DNA of 64,000 nt from an uncultured Flavobacteriales bacterium (lineage in GTDB: Bacteria > Bacteroidota > Bacteroidia > Flavobacteriales > Flavobacteriaceae), in assembly GCA_913063255.1 (NCBI GenBank), contig CAJXYJ010000001.1:1-64000 (forward strand), in the 5' to 3' direction. Positions 31,362 to 61,266 of the stretch are shown piece after piece. Below the pieces are notes generated by a model, which saw nothing but the letters and a program-made list of their open reading frames with translations, was not told the origin of the DNA and searched no databases. Position numbers and translations under genes: made by a program. Within the stretch, counting starts at the first letter, position 1. Each line of letters starts with the position of its first letter.

Positions 31362-32393
31362 TTAATCTTCTATAGCTTCTAAGTATTCTAATAACATTAC
31401 TACAGCTTCATCATGTACCAAACTTCTACCTATTTGAGGCATCAAATATGTTGGTACAGTACTTTGAACTCGACTTTCAATTTGTCCTCTATGTGAGTAA
31501 ATACCAGTGGTTTCGAAATCGGTTTCAAGTCTGAAATCTAATAAAAATCCTGTAGGGACATATCCTCCTGGTAAATGACAATGCGCACAATTAATATCGA
31601 TATAGCCTCTTCCTCTTTCAAAAATATCGAAATTAGCTTCATCTTCCCAGTCTGGTAATACTGTTACTTCTGAAACATCTGACAATCCTTCTAGTAATCC
31701 TTCATTAATAAAAAATTGCAATTGATTCATATTGATTTCACCATTTTGTGGATTGAAATTCATATTTCTCAATTTTGGCCCAATTGGCACTTTTTCCTCA
31801 TAAATATGATGACAAGTGATGCAATCATCATTTGCTGGAATTTGATAGGTAATATCTTGTGTAATTCCTTCTGCATTTAAATAACTGATTGAAACTTGAC
31901 TGCTATTATCGGTATAAATTGCATCCGTCTGATCCTCATTCCATTTGTAATTTCCTATCTTCCATGTGCCTTCGGTCTTTATTAAAACGCGTGTTTCAAT
32001 AATTATTTTATTTGAAGAGGTATTGCTTTCATCTTCATAATAATAAAATGTTTTTGAAATTAAGGTGTTGTCAGGAAAATCGGGTAAATTACTACTTCCA
32101 TTATACTGCATTGCTTCTCCTTCTGGTAGGCGTAGGAGTCTTTGTTTATGTGCGTAATCTGTAAAAAGCTTGCTGTTTAACTCAAATAAATGAACATCTT
32201 CAGCAGGAGTTAAATCAGATAATAATCCACCATAAACTCCCATGTCTGATAAATTAGTTTCGAAAGTTAATGGGATTATAGGATCTGGTTCGCCATCGTC
32301 TGTAGCAACATATCCATCATCATCACTTCCGCAAGAAGTTGTTATTAAAGCCAATACAGATAAGCCTAGAATAAAATACTTTTTCATTTTCAT
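31362..32393 (-). CDS. SO2930-like diheme c-type cytochrome lipoprotein
   Basis: Two CxxCH motifs (DDCITCHHIY, DINCAHCHLPGG); lipobox TTSCGSD. Confidence 0.78.
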   Translation of the reverse strand: MKMKKYFILGLSVLALITTSCGSDDDGYVATDDGEPDPIIPLTFETNLSDMGVYGGLLSDLTPAEDVHLFELNSKLFTDYAHKQRLLRLPEGEAMQYNGSSNLPDFPDNTLISKTFYYYEDESNTSSNKIIIETRVLIKTEGTWKIGNYKWNEDQTDAIYTDNSSQVSISYLNAEGITQDITYQIPANDDCITCHHIYEEKVPIGPKLRNMNFNPQNGEINMNQLQFFINEGLLEGLSDVSEVTVLPDWEDEANFDIFERGRGYIDINCAHCHLPGGYVPTGFLLDFRLETDFETTGIYSHRGQIESRVQSTVPTYLMPQIGRSLVHDEAVVMLLEYLEAIED

Positions 32394-34750: not shown

Positions 34751-35611
34751 ATGGATTCTGAGTTAATTTTTGTGAGTTATTCAAGTAAGGATAGACCGTT
34801 TGCTTTAGAATTCAGTCAGGAATTAGAACTTTTAGGTGCCAATATTTGGATCGATCAAAATAGTATACAGCTGGGTCAGAATTGGGATAATGCTATAGAA
34901 GATGCCTTAGAGACTGCAGACACATTTTTACTCCTAATCTCACCCACGGCAGTAGATTCTCAAAACGTTCAGGACGAAGTATCCATTGCAAAAGAAAATA
35001 ATAAGAAACTTATCCCAGTATTAATTATGCCTTGTGAACTTCCAATGCGTTGGAAACGACTACAATTTGCCGACCTTACAAAAAATGCAGACAAGGCAAT
35101 AAAAGATATAGTGGATGAGCTTGGTTTGCAATTGGAAGCAACTTCAAATTTAAAAAACGTTTTGTCATTAATTGGCTTGTCAGAAATGTCTCCAGATCAA
35201 ATAGTAAAGAATTCTGATAAACAAAAAATGTCTGAGCAAAAATTAGAAGACGAATTGGAACATCTGTTAATTTCAAATGAGGAAATTGATAGCGCTATTG
35301 TTATGCATAAAAAGGGAATTAAAAAAAGTAAACAACTTATGGTAATGGTAGTTCTTGGAAGTTTAATTTTATTAAGTGTATTATTATTTATTGATATAGC
35401 ATTTCCTTTATGGATGATAATAATAGGATGTTTGTCTATAAATTTATTAGCTATAAGACCAGTTGCAAGCATTAGGAAGCGAGATGGGAATATTGATCTT
35501 ATGGATCTTTTAAAACTTAAAAGAGATCGCTTAGTTAGAATTATAAATAAATTGAACGAAAAAGAAATTGAAAACTTTAATCAAGAATTCTTTGATTATA
35601 TTAAAATTTAA
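34751..35611 (+). CDS. TIR-domain protein with C-terminal two-TM module
   Basis: ELIFVSYSSKDRPFALEFSQELELLGANIWIDQNSIQLGQNWDNAIEDALETADTFLLLISPTAVDSQNVQDEVSIAKENNKKLIPVLI; TMs MVMVVLGSLILLSVLLFIDIAFPLWMIIIGCLSINLLAI. Confidence 0.88.
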   Translation: MDSELIFVSYSSKDRPFALEFSQELELLGANIWIDQNSIQLGQNWDNAIEDALETADTFLLLISPTAVDSQNVQDEVSIAKENNKKLIPVLIMPCELPMRWKRLQFADLTKNADKAIKDIVDELGLQLEATSNLKNVLSLIGLSEMSPDQIVKNSDKQKMSEQKLEDELEHLLISNEEIDSAIVMHKKGIKKSKQLMVMVVLGSLILLSVLLFIDIAFPLWMIIIGCLSINLLAIRPVASIRKRDGNIDLMDLLKLKRDRLVRIINKLNEKEIENFNQEFFDYIKI

Positions 35612-36426: not shown

Positions 36427-36933
36427 CTATTCAGCTGTTAAATTTGAATTGAAAATATCTCTAAAAAATTTCCATTTCCCGTCAACTTTTTTCCATAGTA
36501 CCAAATATTTTCCATGATCCACTTCATCCTCTCCAACAAACAACGAATATTCTCCTTCTTCTGTAATAAGGTCTTCAGTACCCCAAACTTCTATGGTTCT
36601 AAGGTCAGCACCTGTAATACCTGAATTAATTATTCCTGAAAAAGTAGATTGAATATTGTTTTTTCCAATAATGGCAGGAGCCCCAGTCATCATAAACTTA
36701 GCATCTTGTGTATATAAATTGGCTATTGCAACGGAGTCTGCCGCCGCAATAAGGGTCGCTAATTCTTTTTCAGCAGCTACGATTTCTGCTTTTGCAGTTG
36801 TCAAATCAAATGTAGACTCAACAACAGCTTTAACTTCTGTGGTTTTTTCTGCTTTTTCATTACAGCAAGCTGTTGAAGAAATAACTAATATAGTTATTAT
36901 AATAAGCGATAAAAGGTTTGTTATTTTTTTCAT
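36427..36933 (-). CDS. DUF4440/SnoaL-like lipoprotein
   Basis: Lipobox STACCN; ADSVAIANLYTQDAKFMMTGAPAIIGKNNIQSTF. Confidence 0.78.
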   Translation of the reverse strand: MKKITNLLSLIIITILVISSTACCNEKAEKTTEVKAVVESTFDLTTAKAEIVAAEKELATLIAAADSVAIANLYTQDAKFMMTGAPAIIGKNNIQSTFSGIINSGITGADLRTIEVWGTEDLITEEGEYSLFVGEDEVDHGKYLVLWKKVDGKWKFFRDIFNSNLTAE

Positions 36934-37278
36934 TTTGTGTTAATTTAAATTGCCTACTCTATTCGGTTTTCAGCTTCTCCGTTAATGTAATATTTAATAT
37001 TTTAAATCAAAGTTATTCTGTCTTTCACGTTTTTGTATGATGCTGGTATTAATCCACTTGTATTTTATTTTTAAATATTCCTTAAAGTTAATGATTTTTT
37101 TTATTCAAACTAAAATGAATTATTGTAAACCAAAAAAAGGTCTATCCTTAAGTAAACTATTTTATCTTATCTTTAATTTTTATATTTCTATGGTGTCCCG
37201 TTTTACAGTATATCTGAAACAAATGCTTCAAGAGACCGTCTGTATGGAATACTCTTAATCTTAATTAAAAAAACAGTT

Positions 37279-39438: not shown

Positions 39439-39503
39439 TTATTTATATTATGAGATACCTCATTCCATTCGGAATGACAAATCAACTTTTATATCACCTT
39501 CAC

Positions 39504-39590
39504 AATTAAACCATCCTCGGTTTTATTCACCTAAACAATTCCGTGATTTGTAAGACCTTTAATAGTCTTATTCCTCTACTATTACTTAAT
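39504..39590 (-). pseudogene. Degenerate 3' remnant of the 70-aa wHTH-like ORF
   Basis: Minus strand GGATTAAGTAATAG..GAATAAGACTATTAAAGGTCTTACAAATCACGGAATTG..GTGAATAAAACCGAGGATGGTTTAATTGTG matches the 51609/60885 genes. Confidence 0.8.
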
Positions 39591-40557
39591 CCTTGACTAC
39601 AAATGTTTTTAGCATATTTTTACTTAAAGCATTTGGGACTTCAGATATCAATGCATAATTTCCTGGCTGAAGATCTACAGTGAAAAAACCCTTATTACCA
39701 GCCGGCATATTATTCACTCCTCCTAAAAAAGTAATATCAGTTGGTGAGGGTTCGATCAAACCTTTAGGGTCAGCCCAATTCATCCAATTCTCCAAGTCTT
39801 CAAGATTTGCATTTTCGCCTAGTTTAGTAAGATTAATATCATGGCCACTAAAATTTTCATGTACAATTTGATCTTTGAAGAATACAGAAAATGTATGTTT
39901 TCCAGAAGAGATAGAATCATTAAATACAATTCCTTCTGTACTCGAAATATCAATATTAATATCAGCTTTTAATTCTGTATTACCAGAATTAGTTTCAGAA
40001 ACAATAAGTTCTTTTATCATTCCCATGGATGTGTGAAATACTCCGTTACTCATTTTTACATAGCATTCTACTATATAAAAACCCGGATCTAATTTTATCA
40101 TGGTTTCTGTATGTTTTCCGGGGGAAATCAAGCCTGAACCACCTAAGAATTGTACTTCACTAAACCAATCCGGAAGTTTGCCAAATTCAGCAAATCCTTC
40201 TTCACTTTTACCTTCATTGATCAGTTTCATACCACTATTAAAATAAGGCATTACCAGATTGTCAATTTCTTTTAATGTAATTCCTTCCGGATATTTATCT
40301 ATTATAAAAAAATGTGTTTGTGAAGATTTATTTTTATAACGGAAAGTGTTCCATCCAGATGAAATTGTATCTGGTATTTGAAAATCCATATTTTCAGTGA
40401 TTATCTCTATGACATTTTCCATTTCAACTTTGATAGGTTGTTTATTACTCTGTTTTTTATCAGAATTACAGGATTGTATTAATATTGAACAAAACAAAAT
40501 AGCTATCGTCCAGACGATAAGACATAATATTTTAGAATATTGACTTAAACTTTTCAT
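39586..40557 (-). CDS. Secreted/lipoprotein hypothetical, two repeated beta-sandwich-like halves
   Basis: Lipobox IQSCNSD; internal repeat ISSGWNTFRYKNKSSQTHFF / ISSGKHTFSVFFKDQIVHENF. Confidence 0.65.
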   Translation of the reverse strand: MKSLSQYSKILCLIVWTIAILFCSILIQSCNSDKKQSNKQPIKVEMENVIEIITENMDFQIPDTISSGWNTFRYKNKSSQTHFFIIDKYPEGITLKEIDNLVMPYFNSGMKLINEGKSEEGFAEFGKLPDWFSEVQFLGGSGLISPGKHTETMIKLDPGFYIVECYVKMSNGVFHTSMGMIKELIVSETNSGNTELKADINIDISSTEGIVFNDSISSGKHTFSVFFKDQIVHENFSGHDINLTKLGENANLEDLENWMNWADPKGLIEPSPTDITFLGGVNNMPAGNKGFFTVDLQPGNYALISEVPNALSKNMLKTFVVKD

Positions 40558-40833
40558 AATTTCTTTTATTAGTTGGTAACTATCTCTAAATCAATATAAA
40601 AATAGTGATAATTTACTAAAGTGACCAATTCGTGACCGGAATGAGCTTTAAAATGTGTGGTGTACATTTTTAGCACTTCGATACTTCGACAGACTCAACA
40701 TATCGCTTCGCTCAGGATAAACTTCGGGACCAACAGTTGAGTTGACGGTGCTTTGTTATCATCTGGGAATACACTTCGATACATTCCGACTTTGTTGGAA
40801 CACTCATAGTACTGCTGTATTTTGTGAAGGAAT

Positions 40834-40934: not shown

Positions 40935-41017
40935 GATTAAACTACATCAACAAATAAACTATCATCAGTTTAATGCCATGCTAGATAAATCTTTTAAATA
41001 TATTCTACTAAGGTTAT
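40935..41017 (-). pseudogene. Degenerate 3' remnant of the 70-aa ORF abutting the DUF11 gene
   Basis: Minus strand CATGGCATTA..AACTGATGATAGTTTATTTGTTGATGTAGTTTAATCG. Confidence 0.6.
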
Positions 41018-44370: not shown

Positions 44371-44656
44371 AGAATAGCCATTTTATTAATGTAGAAAACA
44401 ATTGATTCTTTGTGGTTTCTGAGCTTTAAGGAAAATAGCATGATAATTAAGGTATAGCAAATGCTTAATAGTGTCCAATCCGTGACTATAAATAGGGGTC
44501 TATCTGCTACTTAAAAGCATAAAAAAATGGGGTGGAGTGTTTAGAAAATGTCTGGTAGATATTTTTAACGTACGAGCCAGCTGGCACACTGGCGTCTAGT
44601 AAATCCTTTTATATAATATAGATTCTTCGCTTTCGCTCTGAATGACAATATAACGA

Positions 44657-44755
44657 TTAAACCATCTCCACAAATAAGCCACCATCGGTTTTATTCACTT
44701 TGGCAACACCGCACATTGTATAGACTTTAATGGTCTTGTCCCACTTTTTGTTGCT
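44657..44755 (-). pseudogene. Truncated in-frame C-terminal copy (32 codons plus stop) of the 70-aa wHTH-like ORF
   Basis: Minus translation SNKKWDKTIKVYTMCGVAKVNKTDGGLFVEMV* vs SNKKWDKTIKGLTKHGITKVNKTDDGLFVEVV*. Confidence 0.88.
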
Positions 44756-45502
44756 TTAGTCAGACTGAGTGTTTAGCTCAACCTCAATCATGTTAATTAT
44801 TGATATTATTTCATTTTGAAGATCTTCTCCCTTTTTTAATGTAATAATCATATAGCTCCAATAAAAGAGAAATTCATTTCTTGCTCTATCAGATTTAATT
44901 ACTTCTCGATAATTTACATTGTCATAGTTATATTGCTCCTCTGTTCTGTTTTTGAATGGATACCTGTAGTGTAATTGTGTACGCATATATGGAGTTAAGA
45001 AATTGGTGCCATAATAATTTGCACCGATTTCTTCTTCTTCATAGTCAATTAGATAATTATTAAAGTTGGAAATAGCATTCTTTAACGAATCATTGGAAAT
45101 TATTTCAATTTTTCCTGAATTGATAACAGAATTATAGATGCCTGTTGACGGATTAAATTTGAAATTCCATCCCAGAAAATATATTAGAGAGTCCAGAGTT
45201 TCAAATGGTGCTTGTGTGATTTTAGGATCTAAGAGTCGTTTAACAATTCTATCTCGATTAAGTTGTTCCTTATAATTTATATCAAACTTTACCAGATTGT
45301 CTAAGAATTCTTTGTGAAGGCTATTTAGAGTCTTTATTTCCTCTATTTTTAAAAGCCTGTTTTGATTCCAATTGTTTATTTGAAGCGCGATAAGAATTCC
45401 AATAACAACAAGTACAATTTCCCCAATGGCATATCTCAAATACTTTAAGGGCTTGTTATCATCAGCCATTTTTTTGCGTATTTTTCTAAAAAAAGGGATC
45501 AT
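44756..45502 (-). CDS. DUF6090-like membrane-anchored protein
   Basis: MIPFFRKIRKKMADDNKPLKYLRYAIGEIVLVVIGILIALQINNWNQNR. Confidence 0.82.
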   Translation of the reverse strand: MIPFFRKIRKKMADDNKPLKYLRYAIGEIVLVVIGILIALQINNWNQNRLLKIEEIKTLNSLHKEFLDNLVKFDINYKEQLNRDRIVKRLLDPKITQAPFETLDSLIYFLGWNFKFNPSTGIYNSVINSGKIEIISNDSLKNAISNFNNYLIDYEEEEIGANYYGTNFLTPYMRTQLHYRYPFKNRTEEQYNYDNVNYREVIKSDRARNEFLFYWSYMIITLKKGEDLQNEIISIINMIEVELNTQSD

Positions 45503-45609
45503 ATTATTATTAGTATATATCCCTATAAATCTAATGAAATTTTAATCAACCTTATTAAAGTGACTAATCCGTGTCTATAAATAAGAGGCTATTTGCTATC
45601 AAAAAGCAT

Positions 45610-45642
45610 AAAAAAAAGGATTACCCTTAAAGTAAACCCCTT
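45610..45642 (-). terminator. Cassette terminator hairpin, copy 3
   Basis: Plus strand aaaaaaaggattacccttaaagtaaaccccttcg. Confidence 0.65.
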
Positions 45643-45740: not shown

Positions 45741-45780
45741 TTAAACCATCTCCACAAATAAACCGCCATCGGTTTTATTC
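45741..45780 (-). pseudogene. Short 3' remnant (about 13 codons) of the 70-aa ORF
   Basis: Minus strand GAATAAAACCGATGGCGGTTTATTTGTGGAGATGGTTTAA. Confidence 0.88.
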
Positions 45781-46833
45781 AGTTCTTAATTTATTTAATA
45801 TTTGTTTTTGAAATTGGGCATCGTTTTCTAAAATTTCAAAAAAATCTAAAATATAATCCCTAGCTTCTAAAAACTGTTTTGGATCTTCAAAATTTGATTC
45901 ATAACTATCTACAATAGCAATGAGTTTGGTTTTATTGTCCAAAAATTCTTGTCTTACTTGTTGAAGGATAGCTTTCTTTCTTTTAAATCCTCTGTATAAT
46001 CTATCTCTAACTGAAGTGACACCTAATTCATTCATTTCATCTGAAACAATTGCATAGTTTGGGTTTACAAATCCAGACATATCAAAATCGTAAGGAATAG
46101 GTATAATTCTATTGTTCGCAAATAATAGTTTTTCATTATGCTGAAAGGCTGTTGAGAAATCGGTACAACCAATCATAAACTGAAAAAATGCATTCTGAAC
46201 TGAAGTAATAGGGTCATGATTTAATGGATGAATAGTCCTTTTAATAATTTCACCACCACTTCTTTTAGCAACGACCTTATCATCTTCAACTACTATACCT
46301 TTTAGAAAATGAGATTTTGTTTTATTTCCAGCAATTTCTGTATAGGAAATAGTAGTTATTCTGGTTTTAAAATGATAATTAGATATTTCTTCATATAGTT
46401 TATAAGCTATATACTCTTTCAGAATATAATCATTCTTGCTTTTGTTTGTAAAACAGGGGAGTACTAGCTTTAATTTTTTATTTCCTTCAAATAAAGTTCC
46501 TTTGCTATTAGACTTTTTTATTTTAATTTTTATTGGCGAATAATGACAATTTTCTAATCTAAAATTTCCTCGCTTTCTTAATTTAATGTCGATTGTTTTC
46601 CATGTTCCGCTATCATTTTGATAAGATAAATTTACTTTTAAATAGGTACTGTCATTGGTTTTTTCTTTTATGTATCTATTGGAGTAACTTATTTTTAAAG
46701 GAAGTACTTTTTGGCTCTTAAAAAGTTTAGAAACTTGATCTGATTGGTCTGTAATAATTTTATTTTGAGAATAAGAAATGTAAAATGAAATAGTAAACAG
46801 AAAAATGAAAACACTTAATAATGCCTTTTTCAT
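45775..46833 (-). CDS. Secreted CotH-kinase-like protein
   Basis: Signal peptide; LRKRGNFRLENCHYSPIKIK, FQFMIGCTDFSTAFQHNEKLLFANNRIIPIPYDFDMSGFVNPNYA. Confidence 0.65.
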   Translation of the reverse strand: MKKALLSVFIFLFTISFYISYSQNKIITDQSDQVSKLFKSQKVLPLKISYSNRYIKEKTNDSTYLKVNLSYQNDSGTWKTIDIKLRKRGNFRLENCHYSPIKIKIKKSNSKGTLFEGNKKLKLVLPCFTNKSKNDYILKEYIAYKLYEEISNYHFKTRITTISYTEIAGNKTKSHFLKGIVVEDDKVVAKRSGGEIIKRTIHPLNHDPITSVQNAFFQFMIGCTDFSTAFQHNEKLLFANNRIIPIPYDFDMSGFVNPNYAIVSDEMNELGVTSVRDRLYRGFKRKKAILQQVRQEFLDNKTKLIAIVDSYESNFEDPKQFLEARDYILDFFEILENDAQFQKQILNKLRTE

Positions 46834-50970: not shown

Positions 50971-51393
50971 GTTTAATCGATTTGGTTACACGAAGTTAAG
51001 TAGTTGATTTTAAACAAGTAGGAAAAAACCTACATTTTAGACATAAGGTATTATTATGTCGATGAAGTACCTGAATATTGTTAAAATTTGTAAGAAAAAT
51101 ACACTTTTTAATAAGTCGAACATATTAATAATCAAGTTCAACGTGTATTTTTAAGATCTCTAATAATCTAATATCATCCATATTTATTTTTATATTGGAA
51201 ATGGATAATTGAAATCATATGGAAGGATCTATAATTTCAATTAAGTAAACAACAGTTGATTATTTTATACTTTTATATTGGGATCAAAATTGTTTATGAT
51301 AGTTGGAGTTTTCAAGGAGGTAGATAACTTTATTCGAGTGATCAATCCGTGATCATAAATAGGAGTCTTGCTACTATCTACTATAAAAAAGCA

Positions 51394-51428
51394 TAAAAAA
51401 AGGATTTACTGTTAAGTAAACCCATTTC
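51394..51428 (-). terminator. Cassette terminator hairpin, copy 5
   Basis: Plus strand ataaaaaaaggatttactgttaagtaaaccca. Confidence 0.7.
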
Positions 51429-51532
51429 CATTTTATAGATTCTTCGCTTGCACTTCGATACTTCGGCAAGCTCAGCACAGGCAAGCTCAGTGAACTACTC
51501 AGTAATCAAGTTCAGAATGACAAATCAACGAT

Positions 51533-51570
51533 TAAACCATCTCAACGAATAAACCGTTATCGTTTTTATA
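51533..51570 (-). pseudogene. Short degenerate 3' remnant of the 70-aa ORF next to the full-length copy
   Basis: Plus strand gattaaaccatctcaacgaataaaccgttatcgttttta. Confidence 0.7.
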
Positions 51571-51608
51571 GAGACCCTTCGTCTGCGCTCAGGGTGACAT
51601 TGTGCTAT

Positions 51609-51821
51609 TTAAACCACCTCAACAAATAAACCATCATCGGTTTTATTCACTTTGGTAATTCCATGCTTCGTTAGGCCTTTAATGGTCTTATCCCATTTTT
51701 TGTTAGATAATCCAGATTGGGTTTTCAATTCCAATAAGTCGATAGGGGAGTTGTCTTTCAGAATAGCAAAAACCGCCTTTTCGTCATCGGTCATGGCGAC
51801 CTGCTTTACTTCGGGTTTCAT
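51609..51821 (-). CDS. 70-aa winged-helix-like small protein, full-length copy 1
   Basis: MKPEVKQVAMTDDEKAVFAILKDNSPIDLLELKTQSGLSNKKWDKTIKGLTKHGITKVNKTDDGLFVEVV; near-identical paralog at 60885. Confidence 0.85.
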   Translation of the reverse strand: MKPEVKQVAMTDDEKAVFAILKDNSPIDLLELKTQSGLSNKKWDKTIKGLTKHGITKVNKTDDGLFVEVV

Positions 51822-51952
51822 TTGGGGGAAGAATAAACTGAAAAATACTTAAACCCTATTGTTGCTGGGATTAACAGTGTGTGTATAGAGTGCCCTGACT
51901 AATGCGTGACCAAGATCAGTGATGTATCTGCTACAATCTGCTACTTAAAAGC

Positions 51953-54517: not shown

Positions 54518-55870
54518 CTATTTCTTCAGCACTTTTTGCGAACCAATATTTCCATTCTCATCTTTTACTTTTATAAAATAGATGCCTTGACTTACACTTG
54601 AAATATCGATAGTATTTTTGTTGTTGTTTGATACTACTAATTGCCCTAATTGGTTATACACGTCTATTTGGGTTATAGGAATTGTTGATTGAATATATAA
54701 AAAGCCCGTTGTTGGTGAAGGAAAAACAGAAATGTCTAATAATGCATTTTCATTAACTCCTAATGGGGTTAAATTTTCATACCAGACAAGTTCACCCTCA
54801 CCAGGTTGACTATCAATAGCAAGTACATCCATATCACCATCACCATCTAAATCTTCCGCGTAAACTGACCATGCATTAAAAATATCAAAAATTTGTTTAG
54901 GTCCAAAATCACCTAGTCCATCTAAATTTTCATACCATGCAATTTCACCAGAAATTACATCCATATCCCCATCACCATCTATATCGGTGAAGTATACTGA
55001 CCATGTTCCTAAAGCATTTGTTGTTATAATTTGTTGAGGACCAAAATCACCATTTCCGTCATTTTCGTACCAGGCTATTTTATTATCCCCAGAAGCAGAA
55101 AGCACATCCATATCCCCATCACCATCTATATCAGTGGAGTAAACTGACCTTGCCATTCCAGCATCTGGACTTATTATGTGTTCTGTCCATACGGTGCCGA
55201 GACCATTTACATTTTCATACCAGGCTATTTCATTATCTAATTCAGAAGCAGAAAGCACATCTATATCCCCATCACCATCTATATCGGTGGCGTATACTGA
55301 CCATGCTCCTAAAGCATTTGATGTTATAATATGTTCTGTCCATACGGTGCCGTCACCATTTACATTTTCGTACCAGGCAATTTTATTATCAATTTGTGAC
55401 GCAGAAAGCACATCCATATCCCCATCACCATCTATATCGGTGGCGTAAACTGAGCTTGCATATTCAACATTTGTTGTTATAATTTGTTGAGGACCAAAAT
55501 CACCTAGACCATCAATATTTTCATGCCAAGCTATTTTACCTATAGATGCAGAAAGCACATCCATGTCTCCATCACCATCTATATCGGTGGCGTAAACTGA
55601 CACTGTATCATCAATAGTATTTTCTAATATAATTTGTTGAGGACCAAAATTACCCTCTCCATCATTTTCGTACCAGGCTAATTGAACATTAATCCCAAAT
55701 CCGCCCTCTGAAGCAGAAAGCACATCCATATCCCCATCACCATCTATATCGGTGGCGTAAACTGAACTTCCAAAACTAAGATTTGTTGTTATAATTTGTT
55801 GTGGACCAAATTGAGCGTAAGTGTTTACAAAAATTACAAGTACCAGTAAAGTAATTAGTTTTGTTTTCAT
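54518..55870 (-). CDS. VCBS/FG-GAP repeat T9SS-sorted protein, array copy 1
   Basis: Repeats SVYATDIDGDGDMDVLSAS..IAWYENDGDGNFGPQQIITTN; T9SS C-terminus. Start set at MKTKLIT. Confidence 0.9.
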   Translation of the reverse strand: MKTKLITLLVLVIFVNTYAQFGPQQIITTNLSFGSSVYATDIDGDGDMDVLSASEGGFGINVQLAWYENDGEGNFGPQQIILENTIDDTVSVYATDIDGDGDMDVLSASIGKIAWHENIDGLGDFGPQQIITTNVEYASSVYATDIDGDGDMDVLSASQIDNKIAWYENVNGDGTVWTEHIITSNALGAWSVYATDIDGDGDIDVLSASELDNEIAWYENVNGLGTVWTEHIISPDAGMARSVYSTDIDGDGDMDVLSASGDNKIAWYENDGNGDFGPQQIITTNALGTWSVYFTDIDGDGDMDVISGEIAWYENLDGLGDFGPKQIFDIFNAWSVYAEDLDGDGDMDVLAIDSQPGEGELVWYENLTPLGVNENALLDISVFPSPTTGFLYIQSTIPITQIDVYNQLGQLVVSNNNKNTIDISSVSQGIYFIKVKDENGNIGSQKVLKK

Positions 55871-55896
55871 GATTAATTGGTTTTTTAGCACTATTT

Positions 55897-57240
55897 TTAT
55901 TTCTTCACCACTTTTTGAGTGCTAATGCTTCCCTTTTCATCCATTATTTTAATTAAATAGATGCCTTGGCTGACATTTGAAATATTGATACTGTTTTGGT
56001 TCTTGTTTGACGCAAACAATTGCCCTAATTGGTTATAAACTTCTATGTGGGTTATGGGAATTGTTGATTGAACGTTTAAAATACCTGTTGTTGGTGAGGG
56101 GTAAACAGAAAAGTCTAATAAAGTGTTTTCATTTATTGATAGTGCATGTAAATTTTCATACCAAGCTATTTTATCATCAACATCAGAAGCCGAAAGCACA
56201 TCCATATCATCATCACCATCTAAATCTTCCGCATAAACTGAATTTGCTCCACTAGCATTTGTTGTTAAAATTTGTTGAGGTCCAAAATTACCATCTCCGT
56301 CATTTTCATACCAGGCTATTGTATTACCAAAAGCAGAAAGCACATCCATATCCCCATCACTATCTAAATCTTCCGCATAAACTGACCTTGCTGTAAAAGC
56401 ATCTGTTGTTAAAATTTGTTGTGTACCAAAATTACCATCTCCATCATTTTCATACCAGGCTATTTTATTATCATGTTGTGAAGCCGAAAGGACATCCATG
56501 TCTCCATCACCGTCTAAATCTGTGGCGTAAACTGACCTTACTCCATCAGCATTTGTTGTTATTATTTGTTGAGGTCCAAAGTTACCATCTCCGTCATTTT
56601 CATACCAGGCTATTTTATCATCCTCAGTAGAGGCAGAAAGCACATCTATATCTCCATCACCATCAATATCTTCAGCATAAACTGAGAATGCTCCAAAAGC
56701 ATTTGTTGTTATAATTTGTTGTGTACCAAAATTACCATCTCCATCATTTTCATACCAGGCTATTTTATTATCATGCCATGAAGAAGAAAGCACATCCATA
56801 TCCCCATCACCATCAATATCTTCAGCATAAACTGATTGTGCTGTAAGAGCATTTGTTGATATAATTTGTTGAGGTCCAAAATTACCATCTCCATCATTTT
56901 CATACCAGGCTATTTTAGCATCCTGCCAGGAAGCCGAAAGCACATCCATATCCCCATCACCATCTATATCGATGGCGTAAACTGAGAATGCTCCAAAAGC
57001 ATTTGTTGTTATAATTTGTTGAGGTCCAAAATTACCATCTCCATCATTTTCATGCCAGGCTATTTCACTTTCACTTTGTGAAGCAGAAAGCACATCCATA
57101 TCTCCATCACCATCTAAATCGGTGGCGTAAACTGATTGTGCCAAAAGTGCATTTGTTGTTATGATTTGTTGAGAACCAAATTGAGCATAGGTGTTTACAA
57201 AAATTGCAAGTACCAGTAGAGTAATTAGTTTTGTTTTCAT
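55897..57240 (-). CDS. VCBS/FG-GAP repeat T9SS-sorted protein, array copy 2
   Basis: Same repeats, signal peptide and C-terminus as copy 1. Confidence 0.9.
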   Translation of the reverse strand: MKTKLITLLVLAIFVNTYAQFGSQQIITTNALLAQSVYATDLDGDGDMDVLSASQSESEIAWHENDGDGNFGPQQIITTNAFGAFSVYAIDIDGDGDMDVLSASWQDAKIAWYENDGDGNFGPQQIISTNALTAQSVYAEDIDGDGDMDVLSSSWHDNKIAWYENDGDGNFGTQQIITTNAFGAFSVYAEDIDGDGDIDVLSASTEDDKIAWYENDGDGNFGPQQIITTNADGVRSVYATDLDGDGDMDVLSASQHDNKIAWYENDGDGNFGTQQILTTDAFTARSVYAEDLDSDGDMDVLSAFGNTIAWYENDGDGNFGPQQILTTNASGANSVYAEDLDGDDDMDVLSASDVDDKIAWYENLHALSINENTLLDFSVYPSPTTGILNVQSTIPITHIEVYNQLGQLFASNKNQNSINISNVSQGIYLIKIMDEKGSISTQKVVKK

Positions 57241-57265
57241 GATTAATTGGTTTTTTAGTACTGTT

Positions 57266-58597
57266 TTATTTTTTCACCACTTTTTGAGTTCCAATAGTTC
57301 CGTTTTCATCCAATATTTTTATAAAATAGATGCCTTGGCTGACTCTTGAAATATCAATATTGTTTTTATTTGAATTTGATAAAACTAACTGCCCTAATTG
57401 GTTATACACTTCTATGTGGGTTATAGGAATTGTTGATTGAATATTTAAAATACCCGATGTTGGTGAAGGAAAAACAGAAATGTCTATAATTGCATTTTCA
57501 TTTATTGATAGTGGATGTAAATTTTCGAACCAAAAAAGAATACCTGAACCACTTGATGGGTCATTTTTCCCAGCAAGTACATCCATATCCCCATCACCAT
57601 CAATATCTTCAGCATAAACTGATAATGCATCAAAATTATCAATAATTTGTTGTGAACCAAAAATACCTTCTCCATCATTTTCATACCATGCAATTTCACC
57701 AGAAAGCACATCCATATCCCCATCACTATCTATATCGGTGGCGTAAACTGACCCTAATGGAGTTCCATTTGTTATAAATTGTTGTGAACCAAAATTACCA
57801 TCTCCGTCATTTTCGTACCAAGCTATTAAACCAGCATTAAAAGAAGAAAAAAGTACATCCATATCCTCATCACCGTCAATATCGGTGGAGTAAACTAACC
57901 TTGCATCTATATTTATTGCTATTATTATTTGTGGCCCAAAAATACCATTTCCGTCATTTTCGTACCAGGCTATTTTACCATCATTCTCTGAAGCAGAAAG
58001 CACATCCACATCCTCATCACCATCTAAATCTTCTGCATAAACTGAGTTTGGGAAAAGGGTATTTGTTGTTATAATTTGTTGAGAACCAAAATTACCGTCT
58101 CCGGTATTTTCATACCAAGCTATTTTATTATCATTAAATGAAGCAGAAAGCACATCCATATCGCCATCACCGTCTATATCTTCCGCATAAACTGATTTTG
58201 CACCATCAGCATTTGTTGTTATAATTTGTTAGGGTCCAAAATTTCCATCTCCGTCATTTTCGTACCAAGCAATTTTATCATCATCCTCTGAAGCTGAAAG
58301 CACATCCATATCCCCATCACCCTCTATATCGGTTGCGTAAACTGACGTTGCGTCATTAACATTTTCTGTTATAATTTGTTGAGGTCCAAAATTACCATCT
58401 CCATCATTTTCATACCAAGTAATTTTATCATCAATATCAGAAGCAGAAAGCACATCCATATCCCCATCACCATCTAAATCTGTTGCATAAACCGAGTATG
58501 GGGTATCAACATTTGTTATAATTTGTTGAGGACCAAATTGAGCGTAGGTGTTTACAAAAATTGCAAGTACCAATAGAGTAATTAGTTTTGTTTTCAT
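57266..58597 (-). pseudogene. VCBS/FG-GAP repeat T9SS protein, array copy 3, split by an in-frame TAA at 58229-58231
   Basis: ORFs 57266-58159 and 58229-58597 share a frame; FGP*QIITTNADG replaces the FGPQQIITTNADG seen in sister repeats. Confidence 0.85.
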
Positions 58598-58622
58598 GAT
58601 TAATTGGTTTTTTAGTACTGTT

Positions 58623-60536
58623 TTATTTCTTCAGCACTTTTTGAGTTCCAATAGTTCCCTTTTCATCCATTATTTTAATAAAATAAATGCCTTGGCTGAC
58701 ATTTGAAATATCAATAACCTTTTTGTTGTTGTTTGATACTACTAATTGCCCTAATAGGTTATAAACTTCTATTTGAGAAATAGGTGTATCAGATTGTATA
58801 TTTAGAATCCCAGAAGTTGGATTTGGGCAAATTGAAAAATTCAATGGTGAATTGTCACCTATACCGAGGACCACCTCACTATATCTGGAGATCAAATGAT
58901 AATCAGGATCAAATGCAACAGCACCAACGTCGAATCCCGGTTGCACAAGAAATTCTTGTCCATCAACGGTATTGTCAAGCTCTACATCCAATACCACACC
59001 TCCGGCACCGAATAACCTAAGAGGGACAGTGGCTTCAAAGAAAACTCCCGAGGGATAACTTTGATTTTGATTGATTACCACATTGATATCGTAGGTTTCG
59101 GTTTTATTCCACTCGATAAGGTATAGGGGATGACCTTGATCATAGATCCAATCATTAAAAAATTCGGTCAGATCCTCTCCGGATGTCGTTTCCATCACCT
59201 CAATAAAATCTTCTGTCTTGGCATAACCGAAAGCGAAATTTGGATTGCTCAAAAAATTCTGTAACCCAGTAAAGAAATCAGTATCGCCTAATTTTCTTCT
59301 CAACATGTGTAAAACCATCGCCGGTTTTTTATAGGTCAGACTGTTGTTGAAAACACGGCCTACATTAGTCGTATCCTCGGCTGGAACATAAACCGATCCG
59401 CCTGGATTTGTGGTGGCAATATCGATAAAACCTGCTCTCCAGTTTCTAAATGAGGTTTCACCGTCGAAAGCTTCAACAACCAATCCCTCACAATAGGAGG
59501 CAAAACCTTCGTTAATCCAGATATCCTGCCAGCTTCCACAAGTTACCTTGTTTCCAAACCACTGATGAGCCAGTTCGTGAGCTATCAAGTCCATGTTAAA
59601 ATCTCCCATAAAAGAAACGGTGGTATGTTCCATTCCACCTCCCCAGCCATATTGTGCATGGCCATATTTTTCATCGGCATATGGGTATTCTTCAAATAGA
59701 TCGGTGAATAGATTAATGAAATCTACCGTTATGGGGGTGTTTGCTTGTGCATAACTAAGGTCTTCAGGAAACACATAGTTTATAATATCGAATGGATTTC
59801 CATTATTCGGCACCACATGGGAATAGATCTCATAATTGGTCACTGCAATTGCCACTAAATACGCCGGAATCGGATATTGATGCCTGAAATGAGTAGTTTT
59901 TGTATTCCCATTAATCTCCTGACTTTGCTCCATACCATTGCTTACAGCAAAATATTCTTCATTGGATGGATTGAATTGGGGGGTAGTTATATAGACATCA
60001 ATAATATCAATCTTATCTATTAGATCTTGTTTACAAGGCCACCATCCCTTGGCTCCATAAGGTTCTGAGAGTGTCCAGATGATAGGATCCCCGTCGTGTG
60101 TGGATTGTTCAAAGGATCCTAATCCAGTGTTAATTGGATTTCCTGAATAACTAATGGTTAAGGAGTCCAAAACCCCTTGATTTTGAGGTTGTGGTAAAGT
60201 AATTACCACCTCATCATCATTATTTTGGACAAAGGTTAATGGATTTCCTCTTTGCAATACCTGAGAAACCACCAAGTTAACTGCTAACTCAAAAGTGATT
60301 TCTGTTATTTTCTCTTTTGCTTCAAAATAAGAGGTCACATCTCCGGATATGAAGGCGACGTTTGGATCGACATTAAATTCAAGTCTGTGGTACTTTAAAT
60401 CATAATCTCCAGTATTTGGGTTTCTTGTGCCATTAATAAATTTCATTGCCGATTTGGTTTCTGCTTCGGCTATTGTGATTTGCCCAAAGAGAACTAATGG
60501 TGCAAAAAATAGTAGAAATAATAGTTTAGTTTTCAT
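58623..60536 (-). CDS. M1-family metallopeptidase with T9SS sorting domain
   Basis: GGMEHTTVSF, HELAHQWFGNKVTCGSWQDIWINEGFASYCE; C-terminus as in the VCBS genes. Confidence 0.93.
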   Translation of the reverse strand: MKTKLLFLLFFAPLVLFGQITIAEAETKSAMKFINGTRNPNTGDYDLKYHRLEFNVDPNVAFISGDVTSYFEAKEKITEITFELAVNLVVSQVLQRGNPLTFVQNNDDEVVITLPQPQNQGVLDSLTISYSGNPINTGLGSFEQSTHDGDPIIWTLSEPYGAKGWWPCKQDLIDKIDIIDVYITTPQFNPSNEEYFAVSNGMEQSQEINGNTKTTHFRHQYPIPAYLVAIAVTNYEIYSHVVPNNGNPFDIINYVFPEDLSYAQANTPITVDFINLFTDLFEEYPYADEKYGHAQYGWGGGMEHTTVSFMGDFNMDLIAHELAHQWFGNKVTCGSWQDIWINEGFASYCEGLVVEAFDGETSFRNWRAGFIDIATTNPGGSVYVPAEDTTNVGRVFNNSLTYKKPAMVLHMLRRKLGDTDFFTGLQNFLSNPNFAFGYAKTEDFIEVMETTSGEDLTEFFNDWIYDQGHPLYLIEWNKTETYDINVVINQNQSYPSGVFFEATVPLRLFGAGGVVLDVELDNTVDGQEFLVQPGFDVGAVAFDPDYHLISRYSEVVLGIGDNSPLNFSICPNPTSGILNIQSDTPISQIEVYNLLGQLVVSNNNKKVIDISNVSQGIYFIKIMDEKGTIGTQKVLKK

Positions 60537-60825
60537 AATTCCAAAATTTAAAGGTTAGTCATAAATTGTGTTTAAAATCTTTTATTAAATTAAAGAATTT
60601 TGCCTTTTTATACATACAGAAAACAATCAATTCTATGCATTTTTTGCGCATTTCTATCTAATTTTCAATCAGATAGTGATTTTTGGATGCTAAAAGTGTT
60701 TTGTTAGGATCTAAAAGTGATGGAGTTGTGAAAAGAAAATAGTACCAGTATATTATTATTCACGTGAGTGACCAATCCGTGACCATAAATAGGCATCTAT
60801 CTGCTATCATCTGCTACCTTAAAGC

Positions 60826-60884: not shown

Positions 60885-61097
60885 TTAAATCATCTCCACA
60901 AATAAACCGTCATCAGTTTTATTCACCCTGGCAACACCATGCTTCGTCAAGCCTTTAATAGTCTTATCCCATTTTTTACTGCTTAATCCAGATTGGGTTT
61001 TAAGAGCAACCAAATCCATTGGAGAATTGCTTTTCAGTATTCCAAAAACCACCTTTTCATCATCGCTCATCGCCACCTGCTTCACTTCAGGTTTCAT
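60885..61097 (-). CDS. 70-aa winged-helix-like small protein, full-length copy 2
   Basis: MKPEVKQVAMSDDEKVVFGILKSNSPMDLVALKTQSGLSSKKWDKTIKGLTKHGVARVNKTDDGLFVEMI. Confidence 0.85.
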   Translation of the reverse strand: MKPEVKQVAMSDDEKVVFGILKSNSPMDLVALKTQSGLSSKKWDKTIKGLTKHGVARVNKTDDGLFVEMI

Positions 61098-61266
61098 TTG
61101 GGGGAAGAATGAAACGAAAAACCCTTAAGCCTTATTATGACTAGGATTAACTATGTGTGTCTATAGTGCCCTGACTAATTCATGACCAAGATCAGTGATG
61201 TATCTGCTACAATCTGCGATTTTAAATTGTTATTTGGGTTGTTTATTAAAGAATTGTTATTGATTA

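Follow-up and report, generated by a model that had tools for sequence, protein, structure and literature searches.

In the variable region analysed here, integrative elements have very probably accumulated in tandem at the 3′ end of lysS, the gene for lysyl-tRNA synthetase, and one of these units carries a DUF6090 gene as cargo, now joined to a decayed, displaced lysS tail. The region lies in a window of 64,000 nt (positions 1 to 64,000 of contig CAJXYJ010000001.1, called C1 below) from an incomplete metagenome-assembled genome of the Flavobacteriaceae. A sequence-only reading of this window had proposed that the DUF6090 gene is fused in frame to a repeated 70-aa module, with its stop codon inside the module, and had suggested the capture of a host gene 3′ end.

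Copies of the lysS 3′ end and the empty site

The sequence of the 70-aa module identifies it as the C-terminus of lysyl-tRNA synthetase (LysRS). An intact lysS of 563 aa, ending in FFPQMKPEVKQVAMSDDEKVVFGILKSNSPMDLVALKTQSGLSNKKWDKTIKGLTKHGVAKVNKTENGLFVEVV, is located on the minus strand of the same contig (C1:71570-73261), outside the window, and the C-terminal segment is present in 380 of the 399 genomes of the family. Seven further lysS 3′ ends lie in the window, and every one of them is on the minus strand, like lysS itself. Two are full length: the one at 60885-61097 comprises 70 codons and a stop and is 94% identical to the present lysS end (protein match and alignments), while the one at 51609-51821 (protein match) is the 70-aa ORF of the earlier reading; the 70-codon frames of both (60888-61097 and 51612-51821) are still open and begin with ATG. 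The shorter copies are found at 51531-51574 (alignment), at 45741-45790 (DNA match), where the copy overlaps the stop of the ORF 45775-46833, at 44657-44782 (protein and DNA matches, alignments), where approximately the last 41 codons and the stop remain and overlap the end of the DUF6090 gene, at 40938-40974 (alignment), and at 39488-39592 (protein and DNA matches, alignments), the most distal remnant, which overlaps the stop of the ORF 39586-40557. Most of these tails precede a conserved GTCAC..ATT.GTCA repeat. The proposed module is real as a repeated sequence, but its copies are most likely integration (att) scars formed by the lysS C-terminal segment and not a gene that belongs to a cassette.

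An eighth, truncated lysS 3′ end is present on contig C45, where this tail, together with a left arm and the decayed core AATCTTCCCCCAT (L022, 11781-11909 and 15300-15345), is a further part of a lysS-type array. In another genus three lysS 3′ tails in one orientation lie within 5 kb (G234:C191:47935-52719, L091) and are a second stacked array.

The site is empty in three genomes of the same genus (G012, G010 and G016), in which lysS and an SO2930-type cytochrome gene are 156-180 bp apart and the latter is followed by a 114-118-aa ORF and then a glucosaminidase-like gene. The same three-gene set is found in the window at 32393-30030, with the cytochrome gene, the ancestral neighbour of lysS, on the minus strand at 31362-32393 (TIGR03806, 5.1e-68, below the curated cut-off). 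Here this gene is 39.2 kb from lysS, with the tails in between. The most distal tail is still 7.1 kb from the cytochrome gene, and lysS integration does not explain that stretch. The window also encodes a TIR-domain protein (34751-35611; PADLOC TIR models, best E = 1.9e-16), close to where the variable region ends distally. A match to the Rfam family RF02914 (DUF805b RNA; 40.7 bits) is located on the minus strand at 36951-36983, upstream of the ORF 36427-36933.

The integrase element and its attachment sequences

The stretch between lysS and the tail at 60.9 kb encodes a tyrosine integrase (C1:65751-66818; Phage_integrase 2e-25 and SAM-like domain 1.7e-20 in a profile search), an excisionase-family HTH protein, an AAA/DnaB-like ATPase, a C5 cytosine methylase and a restriction-enzyme-like protein. 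This lysS-adjacent unit is the only one in the stack that has kept an integrase. Across the 399 family genomes this integrase has three relatives at 57% identity or above, and all four are located 0.2-4.8 kb downstream of lysS, in four genera (the others being those of G020, of G203, with one stop, and of G196, a fragment); the next relative, from G368 at 40% identity, is on a different contig from its lysS. The integrase, the intact target with a copy on the far side, the empty site and the relatives at the same site together mark this as a probable tyrosine-integrase element of the lysS 3′ end. No conjugation or mobilisation genes were recognised among the subset of ORFs scanned. Outside the window, an extra right arm (C1:68139-68188; L020:10139-10188) separates the integrase part from a methylase/restriction part of 3 kb, and the lysS-proximal stretch may itself consist of two stacked units. 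At 54518-60536, adjoining an M1 peptidase, one unit carries as cargo the genes for three or four secreted proteins in tandem, which have repeats of 50 residues and C-terminal tails like those of type IX secretion.

The full tails at 60.9 and 51.6 kb and those of G020, G196 and G352 have a common start, at the lysS codons for FFPQ-(M/I), and upstream of that start all carry a conserved left arm, GTCA...ATT.GTCA. In the window the left arms are at 61172-61207, in the integrase element, and at 51896-51931, before the 51.6-kb tail (both minus strand, motif search), and sequence comparison places the putative start of the integration core, TTCTTCCCCCAA(ATGA), at 61098-61109 (minus strand), where the integrase element has its far end. 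Decayed versions are found in G013, G245 and C45. A matching right arm follows the lysS terminator here, in G020 and in G203. Further right arms within the window, all on the minus strand, belong to the next, older unit (60769-60804, motif search), to a unit with its arm at 51337-51397 (DNA match) and to the unit that holds DUF6090 (45559-45619, DNA match and motif search), and one lies behind the tail fused to DUF6090 (44470-44530, DNA match and motif search); an arm repeat GTCACGAATTGGTCA is found at 40622-40636 (minus strand, motif search). The arm motif has six matches in the window versus 0.72 expected, and a longer arm motif has seven versus none in the whole-genome control; Rfam gave no match at the repeats. 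Behind the tail at 39.5 kb there is no arm, which is what the original host end would show. As the truncated tails lack the core, their origin by integration rests on the full tails. A second core near LLELKTQSG, where several truncated tails start, was considered and dropped, the start points differing from copy to copy.

In the mechanism we propose, the tyrosine integrase would recombine the attP of an element with the conserved lysS segment that codes for FFPQMKPE (core TTCTTCCCCCAAATGA). The incoming element would leave lysS intact, since it supplies a lysS 3′ end of its own along with terminator and arm repeats, and the old lysS 3′ end (∼70 codons and the stop) would be pushed to the far side of the element. 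Repeated integration would then give a row of displaced tails, which would decay and lose their 5′ parts by deletion. The sequence itself shows what the tail is, that the homology crosses the DUF6090 stop, how the copies are oriented, the arms, the empty site and the association with the integrase; we infer the action of the integrase, the order of these events, any excision or transfer of the elements, the deletion at DUF6090 with its breakpoints and the origin of the stop. The body of lysS is nearest to that of G005 (89% nucleotide identity), while its last 69 codons are nearest to those of G012 (85%, versus 78% for G005). Such a discordance is what elements that came with their own lysS end would produce; since the tail is also the faster-evolving part, the comparison is suggestive only. 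A more far-reaching idea is that the lysS integrase acts in trans on the units that have no integrase of their own, the 1.1-kb DUF6090 unit among them, and mobilises them as non-autonomous cassettes, the lysS 3′ end being a gene-collecting site of the Flavobacteriaceae at which the LysRS C-terminal end is routinely replaced by the versions of other species; we regard this as speculative and rather unlikely.

If instead the lysS tails were segmental duplications produced by homologous or illegitimate recombination, for example upon natural transformation with the DNA of relatives, no integrase would be needed, which would suit the absence of an integrase from most units and the varying start of the truncated copies. 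However, full tails in several genera share the core start and the same arm at a similar distance, and the integrase family at 57% identity or above is found only beside lysS, which makes duplication improbable as the source of the tails.

The junction between DUF6090 and the lysS remnant

Given a stack of integrative elements at lysS, DUF6090 would be the cargo of one small unit. The gene (44756-45502, minus strand) codes for a 248-aa protein that matches the PF19578 profile with 58.1 bits versus a gathering score of 23.5 (E = 1.3e-15) and belongs to this family; PADLOC gave no match for it. Its C-terminal end is NMIEVELNTQSD, followed by a TAA at 44756-44758, and the same frame stays open for 32 codons past this stop to a second TAA at 44657-44659, such that the minus strand from 44782 to 44657 reads V-E-L-N-T-Q-S-D-stop-SNKKWDKTIKVYTMCGVAKVNKTDGGLFVEMV-stop. 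The DUF6090 stop falls on the Gly-Leu position of the 70-aa module, and the in-frame homology to the module spans 126 nt. This copy is recovered by a protein search with the module (E = 7.2e-13); at the DNA level, 44657-44783 is 77% identical to the lysS 3′ region (E = 1.0e-21). These matches confirm the in-frame fusion, with the stop inside the module, that had been proposed.

The homology continues upstream of the stop. The 21 nt that code for VELNTQS, directly before GAC-TAA, agree with the lysS of a relative (VELKTQS) at 16 of 21 positions in register, which none of 8188 in-frame control windows equalled when scored against the best of 25 lysS references. This backs the earlier proposal that the last residues and the stop of DUF6090 are derived from the repeated sequence. 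The C-termini of DUF6090 homologues place the natural end of the protein near I-E-x-E-(L/I)-K/N, so E-L-N is compatible with both DUF6090 and lysS, and the lysS of G012 reads V-E-L-K-T-Q-S-G-L at the corresponding stretch; from these two observations the breakpoint would lie in or just before the shared E-L-(K/N). T-Q-S-D and the stop are the part explained by lysS only, and the lysS-derived end may possibly extend to V-E-L-N-T-Q-S-D in full. The net change to DUF6090 would probably be a small loss and a gain of about four residues and a stop.

Could ELNTQSD be native to DUF6090, with the remnant starting right after the stop and the similarity before it due to chance? Homologue ends of the E-x-E-(L/I)-K type would allow a native E-L-N, but the match to lysS in register argues against this, as do the C-termini of ∼44 DUF6090 homologues: none ends in TQSD or NTQSD or runs into SNKKWD. 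The finding that would have refuted the sequence-only reading, the same ending in orthologs from genomes without the cassette, did not turn up among these homologues, the closest of which are ∼45% identical and not strict orthologues. A native end is thus very improbable.

Left arm, core and the first ∼30 codons of the tail are all missing from the remnant at 44.66 kb, which also carries changed residues, such as VYTMCGV where lysS has GLTKHGV. The DUF6090 gene and the tail were probably joined by a deletion, which would have taken the left arm, the core and these first codons and brought the DUF6090 3′ end to the tail at the shared E-L-(K/N). On this account the DUF6090 frame terminates as T-Q-S-D-stop within DNA derived from lysS, and what remains of the tail is an untranslated relic. 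As for the stop itself, GAC-TAA can be derived from the GGA-TTA or GGA-CTA of lysS by a few substitutions or by deletion of a single G plus insertion of a single A, and the data favour neither route. The suggested capture of a host gene 3′ end is right in that the repeat is the 3′ end of a host gene, lysS, but DUF6090 captured nothing actively; it is cargo left beside a truncated scar, and its function plays no part in the explanation.

The 32 open codons beyond the stop could also be read as a functional in-frame fusion, in which DUF6090 would be extended by the LysRS C-terminal segment whenever its stop is read through. We set this aside as extremely improbable because the remnant is decayed, in both its missing codons and its altered residues, and because the remnants in which two neighbouring ORFs terminate are out of frame: 45775-46833 terminates within TGAATAAAACC and 39586-40557 within GGATTAAG, both matching lysS in another frame. 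For the latter reason the register at DUF6090 is probably coincidental, one in-frame junction in three being the chance expectation; the out-of-frame neighbours fit accidental junctions and give no support to readthrough or a selected fusion. An integron cassette array with the repeats as attC sites, brought to mind by units of one orientation with a repeat between them, was considered and dropped as extremely improbable, as the integrase scores 71.7 bits versus a cut-off of 265 for the integron integrases of TIGR02249 and the repeat consists of lysS coding sequence accompanied by arms.

In a further genus, an 84-aa ORF (G023:C15:162172-162426, L084) consists of a DUF6090 start and the LysRS C-terminal segment and is an independent junction of DUF6090 with a lysS tail.

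Relation to known integration sites

What looked like a puzzling repeated ORF can now be read as the trace of elements inserted in succession at a single essential gene, and the integrase, arms and core have been recognised in several genera. Integration scars can change how cargo genes end, as the 248-aa protein shows: it belongs to DUF6090 (PF19578) by profile, but unlike the family it has a C-terminal end that appears to be lysS-derived. The C-terminal end of an essential enzyme has probably also been swapped by integration. In the open-licence literature we found no report of lysS islands in Flavobacteriia, Bacteroidetes or Flavobacteriaceae, and the present array extends a hotspot known from Firmicutes to the Flavobacteriaceae with nearly the same 13-bp core.

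lysS is already known as an integration site in Streptococcus and Enterococcus. The vanD genomic islands Tn6711-Tn6713 are located at the 3′ end of Enterococcus lysS and have a 13-bp repeat, TTCCCAACAATGA (PMC8301612). Like the element described here they are integrase islands at the lysS 3′ end, and their repeat is almost the same as the core here, TTCCCCCAAATGA. In contrast to our stack, however, they are single, large and carry vanD, and their site is 17 bp from the lysS end, so little is displaced compared to ∼70 codons here. Streptococcus ICEs integrated in lysS (PMC4701971) likewise use a tyrosine integrase and the lysS 3′ end, with direct repeats of 13-17 bp, but they are conjugative, whereas here no conjugation genes were recognised among the tested ORFs and the units are stacked. 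Finally, the ssrA islands of Dehalococcoides are stacked in tandem at an essential gene, some of them without integration genes (PMC3146451). They resemble the lysS array in following one another in tandem behind an essential single-copy gene, with the 3′ end of that gene repeated at each island, and the stop codon of their element gene dsiB, like that of DUF6090, is found beyond the att site; they differ in their target, an RNA gene, in their Ccr-like serine recombinase and in their 20-bp repeats.
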